Virus record (IMG/VR): IMGVR_UViG_3300026557_000006
Location: 1 to 44,595 of that record
Length of the DNA stretch: 44,595 nucleotides
Direction: 5' to 3' (one strand)
From: a virus
This document shows positions 3,074 to 42,326 of this stretch, piece after piece. Both the position numbers and the translations under genes were made by a program. Below the pieces are notes generated by a model, which saw only the letters and a list, made by a program, of their open reading frames with translations, was not told the origin of the DNA and searched no databases. Position 1 is the first letter of the stretch, and each line of letters begins with the position of its first letter.

Positions 3074-3148
3074 GCTGCCGTAGCTCAGAGAAAGAGCAAC
3101 TGATTTGTAATCAGTAGGTCGGTGGTTCAATTCCATCCGGCAGCACCA
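3074..3148 (+). tRNA. tRNA-Thr (anticodon TGT)
   Basis: A 75-nt cloverleaf: acceptor arms GCTGCCG (3074-3080) and CGGCAGC pair perfectly, followed by ACCA. The D-arm has TAGCTCAG...GAGC. The anticodon stem ACTGA/TCAGT holds loop TTTGTAA with anticodon TGT. The T-arm has GGTTCAATTCC. The CCA is encoded. It sits 17 bases before the outer-membrane protein gene and about 60 bases after the lysis genes, so it may be cotranscribed with a late transcript. Confidence 0.95.
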
Positions 3149-11117: not shown

Positions 11118-12125
11118 ATGCCGCAATTCGGCCAGGGCATTATTCCTGCCCAAGGTGCTATCGCCGCCGAGCTTGCGGCTGTCACCCGCCGCGCGTTCCT
11201 GCCCAAGGTCTTCGTGCAACTATGGAAGTCGACGCCGTGGATGGCGGCGATGCTGTCGCACGCGATGGTCGCCTCTGGCGGCTTGTCGCCGATCACGGTG
11301 CCCCTGCAGGGCAATCCGATGGTCACCATTCAGAACGTCGGCTACGACGGCTCGTTCAATCAGCCCGGCACCACGCCTGGCCTGCAGAACGCCGAATTCA
11401 ATCTCAAGGGCTACCTGACCGCTATCCCGTTCCTGGGTTTTGAAGGCCTGGTGCAGTTGGATTATTCGGTGGTGCCGCTGATCGAAGCGCGCATGAACGA
11501 CGCCACCAACGTGACGCTCGATCGCTTCTCCGGCGACATGTACACCAACATCGCCAACCTACAATCAATGATCGGGCTGCCGGCCGCCGTCGACGACGGC
11601 ACCTTTGCTGCCACCTACGGCGGCATCAACCGGCCCAACAACACGTTCTGGAAGTCCACCTACGTCCACAACGGCGCTCCCGTTGTCCCCACTCGCAACC
11701 TGATGCTCCAGTATATCGCCCAGGTCATGAAGGTGACGGGCGAGATCCCGAAGATGGGACTCATGGGTGTAGGGACCTGGACCAACCTCGCACAGGATTT
11801 CACCCCGAATGAACGCTACGTCGTCACGCCCAGCCAACCCTTCGGAGAAGGTAAGGTAGAGGCGCTGTTCCGAGCTCTTGACGTCGCCGGTGTACCCTTC
11901 TACCCGGACCCGTATTGCCCGGAGGGGACGCTCTATCTTCTCAACACTGACTACCTTTCGCTCTATGTCCATGAGCGCGCCTCCTTCTATTTCACGGGTT
12001 TCGAGTCGACGCTGGCGAACGGGCAGTTCGGCTACATCGGCGCGCTATTGACGCTGCTCGAGATGGTCGACGTCAAGTGCAAAGCCCACGGCAAGTTCGA
12101 TGGGCTGCAATTCTTGAACATTTGA
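11118..12125 (+). CDS. Major capsid protein
   Basis: This 335-residue protein lies 12 bases after the scaffold-like gene with GGAG upstream. It has an N-terminal arm including LAAVTRRAFLPKVFVQLW (19-36) and a long alpha/beta body with TVPLQGNPMVTIQNVGYDG. A GLMGVGTWTNLAQD segment follows, and the conserved-looking tail is VKCKAHGKFDGLQFLNI. Size and location fit an HK97-fold shell protein. The N-terminal arm is echoed in the short protein at 41747-42040. Confidence 0.85.
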   Translation: MPQFGQGIIPAQGAIAAELAAVTRRAFLPKVFVQLWKSTPWMAAMLSHAMVASGGLSPITVPLQGNPMVTIQNVGYDGSFNQPGTTPGLQNAEFNLKGYLTAIPFLGFEGLVQLDYSVVPLIEARMNDATNVTLDRFSGDMYTNIANLQSMIGLPAAVDDGTFAATYGGINRPNNTFWKSTYVHNGAPVVPTRNLMLQYIAQVMKVTGEIPKMGLMGVGTWTNLAQDFTPNERYVVTPSQPFGEGKVEALFRALDVAGVPFYPDPYCPEGTLYLLNTDYLSLYVHERASFYFTGFESTLANGQFGYIGALLTLLEMVDVKCKAHGKFDGLQFLNI

Positions 12126-17262: not shown

Positions 17263-17744
17263 ACGAGGTAAAATTCTCCGTCGAGATGCTGCGGCCTGGT
17301 CTCATCCCGGCGTGGATGATCAATGATCATTTCCAGGAGAACGCCAAGCACCGCAACGTGTTTGAACGGGTCGATCCTGATTGGGACTACTACGCTGAGA
17401 TTCAGCGCAAGGGCGAACTGGTGATGGTCATCGCTCGCGACGAAAAAACCCTGGAGCTGGTCGGCTATATCGCGCTGGTGCTGCGCCCACACCCGCATTA
17501 TCGGACAGTCAAAGTCGCTGTCGATGATCTGCATTATCTGCTACCGTCGCGGCGCGGCCTCGGTGCCGGCAAGCGCATGCTGCAATACGCGGAAAGCGCG
17601 GCGCGAGAAGCCGGCGCCCAGGTTTTCTCGATGCGGCACAAGGCGGCGCAGGATCATGGCCACATCTTCCGCGCGCTGGGCTACGAGCTGACCGACATGG
17701 TCTACACCAAGGATATTCGCAATGCTGAACCGCCTCTTGGATAG
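17259..17744 (+). CDS. GNAT-family N-acetyltransferase
   Basis: This 161-residue protein has the acetyl-CoA-binding motif A, LPSRRGLGAGKRMLQYAE (Arg99-Gly-Leu-Gly-Ala-Gly104), after strands VGYIALVLRP and TVKVAVDDLHYL. It ends in the GNAT-like FRALGYELTDMVYTKDI segment. It should acetylate an amine on an unknown small molecule or protein. The TTG start overlaps the previous stop (TTGA). Position within virion genes suggests modification of a structural protein, but it could equally act on the host. Confidence 0.85.
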   Translation: MNEVKFSVEMLRPGLIPAWMINDHFQENAKHRNVFERVDPDWDYYAEIQRKGELVMVIARDEKTLELVGYIALVLRPHPHYRTVKVAVDDLHYLLPSRRGLGAGKRMLQYAESAAREAGAQVFSMRHKAAQDHGHIFRALGYELTDMVYTKDIRNAEPPLG

Positions 17745-19854
17745 CGAGCTGTTCCCGCGCTGGAAGGATTACGAGCGTTCCGCGCCCTGGCTCTGCTCGA
17801 GCGATGACGGCGACGATGACGGCGGTGGGGGCGGTGGCGACGATGATGGTGGTGGCGGGGGAGACGACGGCGGCGGTGGTGACGACGGTCGCGGTGATGG
17901 CCGCGGTGATTCCGGCGGTGGCGGTGGCGATTCCGGTGCGGGTGGTGGAGGTGGTGGCGGCGATAGCGGCGCCGGTGGGGGTGGCGGGGGTGGTGGTGGA
18001 GATTCCGGGGGTGGGGGCGGCGGAGGAGGAGGCGGCGATACTGGCGGCGGCGGGGGGGCTGACGGAGCCAGTGCCGATGATGGTGGTGGCGACCCGACCG
18101 GCGGCAATCAAGATCCAGGCGGCGGTGGCGGTGGCGGCGCTGATACGGCAGCTGGCGGGGCCGACACTGGGGCTGGTGATACCGGCCCCGGCGCGTTCGC
18201 CGACGGGCCTGGTGGCTCACCCGCAGCCGCAGCCAGCGAGGGTGGCGGCATCACCGGGGACGTGGCCGGTGCGCTCGACAATGCCAGCACCGGGCAGGAC
18301 ATCGCGCTGGCTGCCGGTTCCAGCCCGGCCGCGGCCGCCGATGCGGCTGGGCTTCCGGGTGGCGTAACTTCAGCGCAGGAGGAGCTTTCCGGGCAAAACC
18401 AGGTGGCCGCCGCGCTCGACGCCGGCAGCCCGCAGACCGCTGCGCTCACCTCGCCCGGCCAAGCCTTTGGTGGCCAGCCCGGCTTGGACCCGAGCGGCCC
18501 GGCGATTGATCCGGCTACCGGGGCGCCAACGGCCTGGTCGGGCTTCGGCGGCTTTTCCGCCAACACCCCCTCTGGCCCCAGCTACAACGTCGGGGTCGGC
18601 ACCGGCAATCCGATGGATACGATCGCGGGCCAGATCGGCACCGCGCAGGCGGCCAATCCGGGCGCGTTTGGTGGGCAGCCTGGGCAGTTCTCCGGGCCGA
18701 TGACGCAGGGGGACATCAACAACGCGCTGCAGCCTGGCCTCAACGGCGCGCAGCCGATGACCGGTCCGGACAGCTTCTTCGATCCTGGATTTGCTCCTCC
18801 GGGACAGCAACAGCCACAAGGGGCCGCTCCGGTGGGTGGCTTGCAGGTGGCGACCGCCGGCAATATTGGCGATGTTCTCGGCATCGAGAACCCGAACGCG
18901 CCGGCGCCAGCCACAGCCGCGCCCGGCAGCTTCAACGAGCAGCTGGCGACGATACCAGGCGCCTTCAACACCACCGGCGACATGCCCAACGCCATGCCGG
19001 TCGGCAGCGCGCCGTTTGGAGCTCAACCCGGCGGCCCACCTGGCGTCGTGGACGCCTCCGGGCCGCCGGCCTGGGCGCAGAACACGCCCGCGAGCGGCAC
19101 GATCTCCAACGCCGGCACCTCGGTTGCGGCTGCGCTCGCCAACGCGCCCGGCCCCGGCAATAACATGGGGGGCGTGCCGGCCACTGAAAATCCAACGTCA
19201 GTGCAGACCCAATCGTTCACGGCACCGAGCGTGGCCGAAGGGCAGCCGCTCACCGCGCAAGATCTGCCGGCGAACCGCCAGCAGAACCAGGAGAGCGACC
19301 CGCTCGCAACTCAAGCCGCCCCCAGCACGCCGGCGCCTGGCCCGTCCGGCCCGGTGGGACCTGACGTGGTCTCCAACCCGCCTAACGAAGGCGTTGGCAC
19401 CTCCACCACCCCGGATGTGCTGGCGGCGCTCAACAGTGCCGGCTCGCCCGACGGCGGGGGTGGCACCACGCCCACTTCAGGCGGGCCCCCTCCGGTCAGC
19501 CCGCAAAGCATCGTTACGCCCATCCCCCCGGTCGGCACGCCGCCCGGCACTCCCCCGGCAGGAACACCATCTCCGTTCCTGAGCCCGTTTTCTGGGGACG
19601 GGGGGAACTTCAACCCGGAACAAGGGCTGTTCGGCAACTCCGGCCACCCTGGCGGTGGCACCAACGAGGTGATCTCAGGAACGTCGTTGCCGGGCGGGGT
19701 GCAGGGACCGGTGCCTATCCTGGGACCCGCCACCGACCCGAATGGAGCCGCTGGGGGCAATTTTAACGCCAACGAGGGCATGTTTGCTGCCCTCAACAAT
19801 GCGGTCGATACCTTGCCGCCGGGCAACATCAATCCCAACGAGGGGATAGGCTGA
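17722..19854 (+). CDS. Very long Gly/Asp then Pro/Gly-rich virion protein
   Basis: This 710-residue protein overlaps the acetyltransferase by 23 bases. After about 27 ordinary residues comes a roughly 110-residue tract of almost only Gly and Asp (later Ser/Ala), then about 550 residues of disordered Gly/Pro/Ala/Asn/Gln sequence with few charged or aromatic residues. Near the C-terminus a motif recurs three times: NFNPEQGLF, NFNANEGMF, NINPNEGIG. Location among ejection-type genes suggests an internal or ejected protein. The Asp/Gly tract resembles calcium-binding or flexible spacer sequence, but has no spaced nonapeptide repeat. No family recognised. Confidence 0.75.
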   Translation: MLNRLLDSELFPRWKDYERSAPWLCSSDDGDDDGGGGGGDDDGGGGGDDGGGGDDGRGDGRGDSGGGGGDSGAGGGGGGGDSGAGGGGGGGGGDSGGGGGGGGGGDTGGGGGADGASADDGGGDPTGGNQDPGGGGGGGADTAAGGADTGAGDTGPGAFADGPGGSPAAAASEGGGITGDVAGALDNASTGQDIALAAGSSPAAAADAAGLPGGVTSAQEELSGQNQVAAALDAGSPQTAALTSPGQAFGGQPGLDPSGPAIDPATGAPTAWSGFGGFSANTPSGPSYNVGVGTGNPMDTIAGQIGTAQAANPGAFGGQPGQFSGPMTQGDINNALQPGLNGAQPMTGPDSFFDPGFAPPGQQQPQGAAPVGGLQVATAGNIGDVLGIENPNAPAPATAAPGSFNEQLATIPGAFNTTGDMPNAMPVGSAPFGAQPGGPPGVVDASGPPAWAQNTPASGTISNAGTSVAAALANAPGPGNNMGGVPATENPTSVQTQSFTAPSVAEGQPLTAQDLPANRQQNQESDPLATQAAPSTPAPGPSGPVGPDVVSNPPNEGVGTSTTPDVLAALNSAGSPDGGGGTTPTSGGPPPVSPQSIVTPIPPVGTPPGTPPAGTPSPFLSPFSGDGGNFNPEQGLFGNSGHPGGGTNEVISGTSLPGGVQGPVPILGPATDPNGAAGGNFNANEGMFAALNNAVDTLPPGNINPNEGIG
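17800..18130 (+). repeat. G-rich low-complexity tract encoding Gly/Asp repeat
   Basis: About 330 bases made of GGTGG, GGCGG, GACGAC and similar short units, strongly G-biased on the plus strand. It is coding (Gly/Asp tract of the 710-residue protein). Such DNA can form G-quadruplexes and is prone to slippage, so its exact length may vary or be misassembled. Confidence 0.8.
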
Positions 19855-41522: not shown

Positions 41523-41593
41523 TGGCGTATCTGCTGCTCAAGGATCGGATCAGCTCGTGGAGATGGCGCCATGATCACTCGCGTCCACGGTGA
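41423..41593 (+). CDS. Possible 56-residue membrane protein
   Basis: ATG 41423 opens a frame with basic residues and one membrane helix (RLLVLRVVPISWIVAYLLL, about 22-40), ending in an Arg/His tail. It overlaps both neighbours in other frames, which is common in this operon. SD is weak. Moderate-to-low support. Confidence 0.45.
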   Translation: MGSAGIRPPWSLRDTWAKKWRLLVLRVVPISWIVAYLLLKDRISSWRWRHDHSRPR

Positions 41594-41750
41594 CATTCAG
41601 TTCGAGTGCGATGAGTGCGCCGAGGTGCTTGATACACGCACCTCCGAGTTCTCCGAAGCGCTGACCGAGCTCAAGGTCGAGGGCTGGAGATCGCGCAAGC
41701 TCGGCAACGATTGGTCGCACTACTGCGAAAAGTGCTGGGTGAAGCAATGA
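41571..41750 (+). CDS. 59-residue zinc-ribbon protein
   Basis: MITRVHGDIQFECDECAEVL... ends WSHYCEKCWVKQ. Two CxxC pairs (CDEC near 13-16, CEKC near 52-55) flank a helix with the SEFSEALTELKVEGWRS pattern, a compact zinc-ribbon layout seen in many small phage proteins. Its stop overlaps the next start by ATGA. Function unknown. Confidence 0.7.
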   Translation: MITRVHGDIQFECDECAEVLDTRTSEFSEALTELKVEGWRSRKLGNDWSHYCEKCWVKQ

Positions 41751-42040
41751 CTACGCGCCGTGGCTTCATCACCGGCCTGGGGGCGCTGTTCATCGCGGCG
41801 CCGGCGATCGTGCGCGTGGCCTCGATCATGCCGGTGCGGGCCTTTGACCTTGATCTGACCGATTACGATGCCATCGAGCAGGAGCTGCGGGCGATGTCTG
41901 GCGGCATCGAGCATAGCGTGCGAGACGCCTTCGGTGAGTTGGTGTCGGTGACCCGTATGGCTTTCGTGCCACGGCTCTTTGTTGAGGTATACAGAGCATC
42001 GCCGTTGCTGGCTGAGCTACAAGGGAATGCGGACAGCTGA
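41747..42040 (+). CDS. Signal-bearing protein with capsid-N-terminus-like tail
   Basis: This 97-residue protein begins TTRRGFITGLGALFIAAPA, a twin-arginine-like signal (RRGFI followed by a hydrophobic core to about 29). Residues 64-91 (ELVSVTRMAFVPRLFVEVYR...) align without gaps to residues 18-45 of the major capsid protein (ELAAVTRRAFLPKVFVQLWK...), with identities at Glu, Leu, Val, Thr, Arg, Ala, Phe, Pro, Phe, Val, Pro, Ala. The protein ends where the capsid continues into its fold. Function unknown: a truncated capsid duplicate or a capsid-directed peptide. Confidence 0.65.
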   Translation: MTTRRGFITGLGALFIAAPAIVRVASIMPVRAFDLDLTDYDAIEQELRAMSGGIEHSVRDAFGELVSVTRMAFVPRLFVEVYRASPLLAELQGNADS

Positions 42041-42254: not shown

Positions 42255-42326
42255 GGGCCGGGCGCTGGGGTGCAGAGAGGCCTTGCAAGCCATTCGCGGT
42301 GGGTTCGATTCCCACTCGGTCCACCA
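42255..42326 (+). tRNA. Atypical tRNA-like element (best fit tRNA-Ala, TGC)
   Basis: Acceptor arms GGGCCGG (42255-42261) and TCGGTCC pair over seven positions with two G-U pairs, followed by A and encoded CCA. The T-arm GTGGG-TTCGATT-CCCAC is perfect. The anticodon loop CTTGCAA in GGC/GCC reads TGC (Ala), but one stem pair is mismatched, the D-arm is short (CTG/CAG) and T8 is missing. It may be a degenerate or unusual phage tRNA, or only a tRNA-derived sequence. Confidence 0.45.

Follow-up and report, generated by a model that had tools for sequence, protein, structure and literature searches.

What does a phage gain from a short protein that joins a signal-like leader to a copied piece of its own capsid? 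The window, by which we mean the whole stretch of 44,595 nucleotides analysed here (IMG/VR virus record IMGVR_UViG_3300026557_000006), encodes one such protein, a 97-residue product whose CDS runs from its ATG at 41747 to 42040 (+). The ATG overlaps the stop codon (ATGA) of an upstream ORF at 41571-41750 (+), which specifies a 59-residue, Cys-rich, zinc-ribbon-like protein. The product divides into a leader module common to about 150 short phage proteins (residues 1-30, MTTRRGFITGLGALFIAAPAIVRVASIMPV; 41747-41836, +), a linker without assignment that is predicted, at low confidence, to be helical (residues 31-63; 41837-41935, +), and the capsid-arm copy itself (residues 64-91, ELVSVTRMAFVPRLFVEVYRASPLLAEL; 41936-42019, +). 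PHROGs, Pfam and NCBIfam offer no family for it except a sub-threshold Tat signal, and its AlphaFold model is weak (mean pLDDT 57.7, pTM 0.20). A tRNA-Ala(tgc) gene lies about 215 bp downstream (42255-42326, +), and a tRNA-Thr(tgt) gene lies near the left end of the window (3074-3148, +). An earlier note, which saw this one protein, had suggested a capsid-assembly modulator, a decoy interfering with the capsids of other phages, or what is left of a duplicated capsid gene. This protein belongs to a far larger, widespread and apparently undescribed class in which a leader is joined to pieces of the phage's own virion proteins; a literature search (subscription papers and most preprints lay outside its scope) returned no report of such proteins.

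The source of the copied piece is the major capsid protein (MCP) encoded at 11118-12125 (+). This 335-residue product scores 123 bits against NCBIfam NF033394 (cut-off 80) and belongs to phrog_9953, "major head protein"; its AlphaFold model, with a mean pLDDT of 58.5 and a poor N-arm, matches HK97-fold capsids in the PDB. By NF033394 and phrog_9953 it is a full-length podovirus-type MCP, which the 97-residue protein, holding the N-arm only, is not. Since the models of both proteins are weak, arguments about interfaces are limited here to the HK97 fold and its spine helix. The segment copied in the window is the N-terminal arm, MCP residues 18-45 (ELAAVTRRAFLPKVFVQLWKSTPWMAAM; 11169-11252, +), while the spine helix, residues 118-143 (11469-11546, +), is a second segment copied in two relatives (G033 and G007). 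The structural region also encodes a 710-residue, Gly/Asp-rich, low-complexity protein (17722-19854, +).

The gap-free alignment of residues 64-91 with MCP residues 18-45, with 12 identities in 28, was confirmed, and it withstands both shuffling and profile comparison. Its local score of 78 exceeds that of every one of 5,000 shuffles (mean 28.7, sd 4.4, maximum 57), and a profile of nine homologous tails aligns with the MCP profile over 38 columns (hhalign E 1.6e-13, probability 98%). A six-frame search of the whole window finds the MCP arm as the sole other match to the 97-residue protein (E 2e-5), and tblastn against 50,697 phage records finds only two matches, both to the N-termini of annotated MCPs. 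It is fair to say, as had been said, that the protein stops where the capsid fold begins, since the E-loop strands of the MCP model lie beyond the end of the match. Residues 31-63 were tried as a copy of the MCP spine helix, without support (p 0.66). Chance similarity of a helical, Arg/Ala-rich stretch of 28 residues might be entertained on the strength of a single pair sharing just 12 identities, yet shuffles never attain the score and the profile E-value is very small; with the class-wide controls given below, which point the same way, the probability left to chance is negligible.

The same architecture of signal plus MCP arm, for which the earlier note had proposed to search, is found in other phages (L003, G063, G054, G012, G033, G040, G007 and L310), and their proteins together with that of the window make up the nine-protein alignment. 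The R, A, F and P of the motif R-x-A-F-x-P are invariant across the nine. Two of the phages, G063 and G054, are close to that of the window by MCP (94% and 93% identical), and each has its own diverged version of the signal-arm protein. The tails of G033 and G007 carry two MCP pieces in swapped order, the spine helix (MCP 120-144) followed by the N-arm (MCP 14-45), and their spine pieces beat all 1,000 shuffles. MCP residue R25 (window 11190-11192) is invariant in 28 of 28 MCPs of the window's type; of the 11 arm tails, 6 have Q, K, M or E in its place, which hints that the tails have a task of their own. The window tail, moreover, matches same-family MCPs of other phages at 65% (E 9e-9), more closely than its own at 39% (E 5e-5), and some other tails are likewise nearer to foreign MCPs. 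Fragments of assembling proteins can poison assembly, and both the altered arginine and the closer foreign matches favour a dominant-negative piece that would block capsid, portal or tail assembly in co-infecting phages of the same family, a reading we consider unlikely for reasons that follow from the wider class.

The leader pattern RRGF...AAPAIVRxxS(L/I)MPV stands at the N-termini of many short IMG/VR phage proteins whose tails are very different. The search of IMG/VR confirmed 141 places, of which 80 were kept, and a DNA pattern added more. Of 152 leaders, 145 retain the RR pair, which the DNA pattern did not require, although a leader-HMM filter was applied afterwards. From its sequence the leader looks like an alphaproteobacterial Tat signal. 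It shares with Tat substrates of the TIGR01409 type the RR, the hydrophobic stretch and an APAIVRA ending, and across the leaders R(A/V) stands ahead of a conserved S. It departs from them in its virion-piece cargo, in a score below the cut-off, and in being conserved past the expected cleavage site (S-L/I-M-P-V-K/R), a conservation that the search pattern partly produces. The twin-arginine-like signal of the earlier note is therefore sound in form (RR, hydrophobic stretch, A-x-A-like end) and falls short of the curated TIGR01409 cut-off, at 12.9 against 16.7 bits; the leaders of the relatives tested score at most 14.1 bits. Related RR leaders are also seen on proteins of 183-285 residues (G003:26749-27606, G005:2763-3458 and G043:39103-39654), so the leader is not restricted to short genes.

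A search of 50,697 phage records at E up to 1 yields no cultured-phage match for the leader, which is also rare in genomes, with 7 loci among 84,980 genomes and a presence in 1 of 385 sampled bacterial genomes of the class. Phage-family genes lie near at least three of the genome loci (L281, L282 and L287). This near-absence from bacterial genomes points to phages that are mainly non-integrated, and the carriers appear to be mostly phages of uncultured bacteria rarely present in sequenced genomes. With almost no prophage copies, a role in protecting lysogens is unlikely, which weakens the case for interference with co-infecting phages.

To characterize the tails, 87 distinct ones were compared with all ORFs of the same phages, using 59 IMG/VR contigs, which may be fragments. 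By BLAST, an MCP match is seen for 30 of the 87 tails at E<1e-3, and for 23 of them at 1e-5; no shuffled tail (0 of 1740) and no leaderless small ORF from these phages (0 of 434) gives one, even at E<0.1. The PHROGs profiles were not sensitive enough, missing one tail that BLAST matches to an MCP at 1e-16, and families were therefore built from the phages' own ORFs. When the resulting HMMs of twelve virion-protein families are used, 43 of 87 tails match one of them at E<0.01, and the control ORFs give 2 of 434 and the shuffles 0 of 435; the twelve were picked after the tails were seen, and the controls faced identical families. Among the tails are pieces from seven MCP PHROG families, 9953, 283, 1357, 334, 212, 371 (weakly assigned) and 138, along with pieces of the head-tail adaptor/portal (phrog_332, phrog_156) and the tail collar. 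Terminase is a possible further source, through one weak match to a family that is terminase by phrog_2. A further 65 tails, from the DNA pattern and genome contigs, add about 10 MCP matches and one collar match, and overall a source is assigned for about half of the tails.

Several leader proteins have tails of other kinds. By HMM, L288 and G070 (L279) join the leader to tail-collar domains, and by eye L351 and L302 join it to tailspike-like stretches. Four related tails (L346, L348, L355 and L363; ILTRQQ....LLPELNKLF.IEY) resemble by eye the N-terminus of an MCP family outside the set used here, and PHROGs gives for tails of this type only a weak unknown family at E 0.03. Four phages (L290, L304, L337 and L370) share a further leader protein whose tail (H(H/Q)IPERWATVWGVG...) is conserved, in contrast to the rapid change of tails in the rest of the class.

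The MCP family of a tail is nearly always that of the phage that carries it. On contigs with a known MCP, the two agree in 26 of 26 cases assigned by BLAST and in 33 of 34 assigned by HMM, the exception (G004) being a weak match; permutation of the HMM-assigned matches averages 7.6 and never exceeds 18 in 20,000 rounds. Together with the empty BLAST controls, the shuffles and the profile comparison, this refutes chance as the origin of the arm. Within an MCP family, too, the phage's own MCP fits the tails better than swapped MCPs do (p 0.004). Leaders up to 88% identical bear tails of different MCP families, and wherever the MCP of the phage is known the tail belongs to that family, so the leader moves between phages and the tail follows the capsid. 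The window protein, with its own-family MCP arm, belongs to the class so described. Since nearly every copied piece is drawn from the MCP family of the phage itself, a dominant-negative piece would be expected to cause self-harm, and the overall better fit to the own MCP than to those of relatives likewise speaks against interference. A decoy aimed only at the capsids of other phages, as the earlier note had it, fits less well for the same reason.

The family match and the within-family fit are also what would be expected if the tail used the copied interface to bind capsid or portal subunits of its own phage and, with the leader as anchor, timed or nucleated procapsid formation at the inner membrane. 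The N-arm and the spine helix are contact elements of the HK97 fold, and they are the MCP pieces most often copied in families 9953 and 283. Three leader genes, furthermore, lie 72-201 bp upstream of an MCP gene. Such an assembly modulator ranks next after the reading that we prefer, and we regard it as possible though rather improbable. The copied piece changes from phage to phage, ranging over N-arm, spine helix, E-loop region, C-terminus, portal and collar; several phages have the gene on the opposite strand to the MCP or tens of kb away from it; and many contigs with a near-identical MCP have no such gene, though some of these are fragments.

Several tails are mosaics. Pieces of MCP spine and N-arm are combined in G033, G007, G015 and, weakly, G002; the MCP C-terminus is joined to the spine in G005 and to the head-tail adaptor in G071; G021 joins a piece of a nameless MCP-adjacent family to an MCP N-terminus; L078 has two adaptor pieces; and in G023 an MCP piece stands beside an adaptor piece. 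Three phages (G005, G020 and G023) have two or three such genes each, with different pieces. Between tails and their own MCPs, synonymous sites are almost saturated with differences (pS 0.55-1.0), pN being 0.21-0.55, and similar tails of different phages show dN/dS of 0.15-0.77 where it is computable. Conserved copies are easier to detect, so these figures serve as supporting evidence only. Saturated synonymous sites beside a kept protein sequence suggest that these are old, probably selected proteins and not recent debris.

A pseudogene left by MCP duplication does not fit the window protein, given its open frame and kept leader, the swapped-order mosaics in relatives, and pN below pS. The remnant of the earlier note is disfavoured more broadly, because the leaders of other phages carry pieces of other capsid families, the mosaics are swapped and the protein is kept; of that note's interpretation, the arm copy and its architecture in relatives are upheld, and the assembly modulator and the decoy are both candidate readings. 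A different account without selected function supposes a hot spot beside an often-transferred leader gene that captures pieces of late genes. It draws on the huge diversity and fast turnover of the tails, on leader genes lying immediately 5' of the MCP in three phages, and on the different tails of neighbouring leaders, where nearest leaders share a tail family in 19 of 42 cases against 9.6 expected. A functionless by-product, possible in principle, fits the sequence conservation poorly, given the dN/dS between tails and a pN to the MCP well below saturated pS (partly ascertained). The pieces, moreover, are in the sense frame only and open, are concentrated on MCP, portal and collar, and are absent from the leaderless ORFs of the same phages. 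We hold this account to be quite improbable.

Varying pieces, mosaics and two or three genes per phage are expected of epitope decoys and not of one fixed assembly role. The copied proteins are, in addition, those that known bacterial sensors read. The MCP is read by CapRel-SJ46 (PMC9712102) and by ThsB of Thoeris (PMC11312562); a short MCP peptide, Gol, from T4 gp23, is read by Lit, as cited in those two papers; and the terminase and portal are read by Avs1-4 (PMC12931631). The Tat pathway, for its part, can transport a bound partner that has no signal of its own, so-called hitchhiking (PMC4273604). With both precedents known, the best reading is a decoy acting at or through the membrane. We tentatively propose, and at less than even confidence, that in many uncultured phages a Tat-type leader with a one- or two-piece mosaic of the phage's own virion proteins forms an exported or membrane-held, multi-epitope sensor decoy. 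The tail, made in the infected cell, would present the sensor with an epitope of the new capsid, portal or terminase without the full trigger; the leader would then retain the complex at the membrane, or export it through Tat with its bound partner, and the sensor would thereby be removed before the real virion proteins appear.

We infer the decoy function, the binding of a sensor and the export of the class alike from the patterns described. The decoy reading explains why the pieces vary and form mosaics, why several copies can occur in one phage and why the tails match self, and it is consistent with an own-family match that extends over seven MCP families, with near-empty controls, with a protein kept at saturated synonymous sites and with the within-family fit to the own MCP. 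Against it, a piece of capsid can be enough to activate a sensor, as Gol triggers Lit, so a decoy would have to bind the sensor yet leave it inactive. The usual cargo of Tat is folded, while the tails, to judge from the weak model, may be unfolded. The sub-cut-off leader scores, the closer match of the window tail to other phages' MCPs and the share of about half of the tails without an assigned source also weigh against it. If the decoy reading is true, the tails are a natural record of the virion parts that bacterial immune systems read, and each would point to a hitherto unknown sensor among uncultured bacteria; if instead they modulate assembly, they are natural capsid-interface peptides. 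On either reading, it was unexpected that phages should carry signal-tagged copies of their own virion proteins as a large class, and this lends itself to simple tests.

Proteins that intervene in virion assembly offer one comparison. The satellite capsid redirectors P4 Sid and PICI Cpm are likewise small and act on a capsid protein, but it is the MCP of a helper phage, and they are not MCP copies and have no leader. Tab, a tail assembly blocker of a Pseudomonas prophage that is paired with an anti-Tab, shows that an assembly-blocking defence exists, as interference would require. According to the abstract of PMC10884400, it is phage-encoded, as are the proteins described here, and is thought to act on morphogenesis proteins; it differs in being prophage-borne and in targeting the tape measure, and that abstract describes no leader-tagged copy of a virion protein. 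The sensors offer another. For Lit with Gol, CapRel-SJ46 and ThsB of Thoeris, as far as the cited accounts go, a piece of the MCP or the whole MCP is the signal, as the copied pieces here would be, and for Avs the terminase and portal take the signal role (PMC12931631), proteins likewise copied in the class. The triggers of Lit, CapRel, Thoeris and Avs are, on those accounts, parts of real virion proteins, whereas here separate genes encode signal-tagged copies of them.
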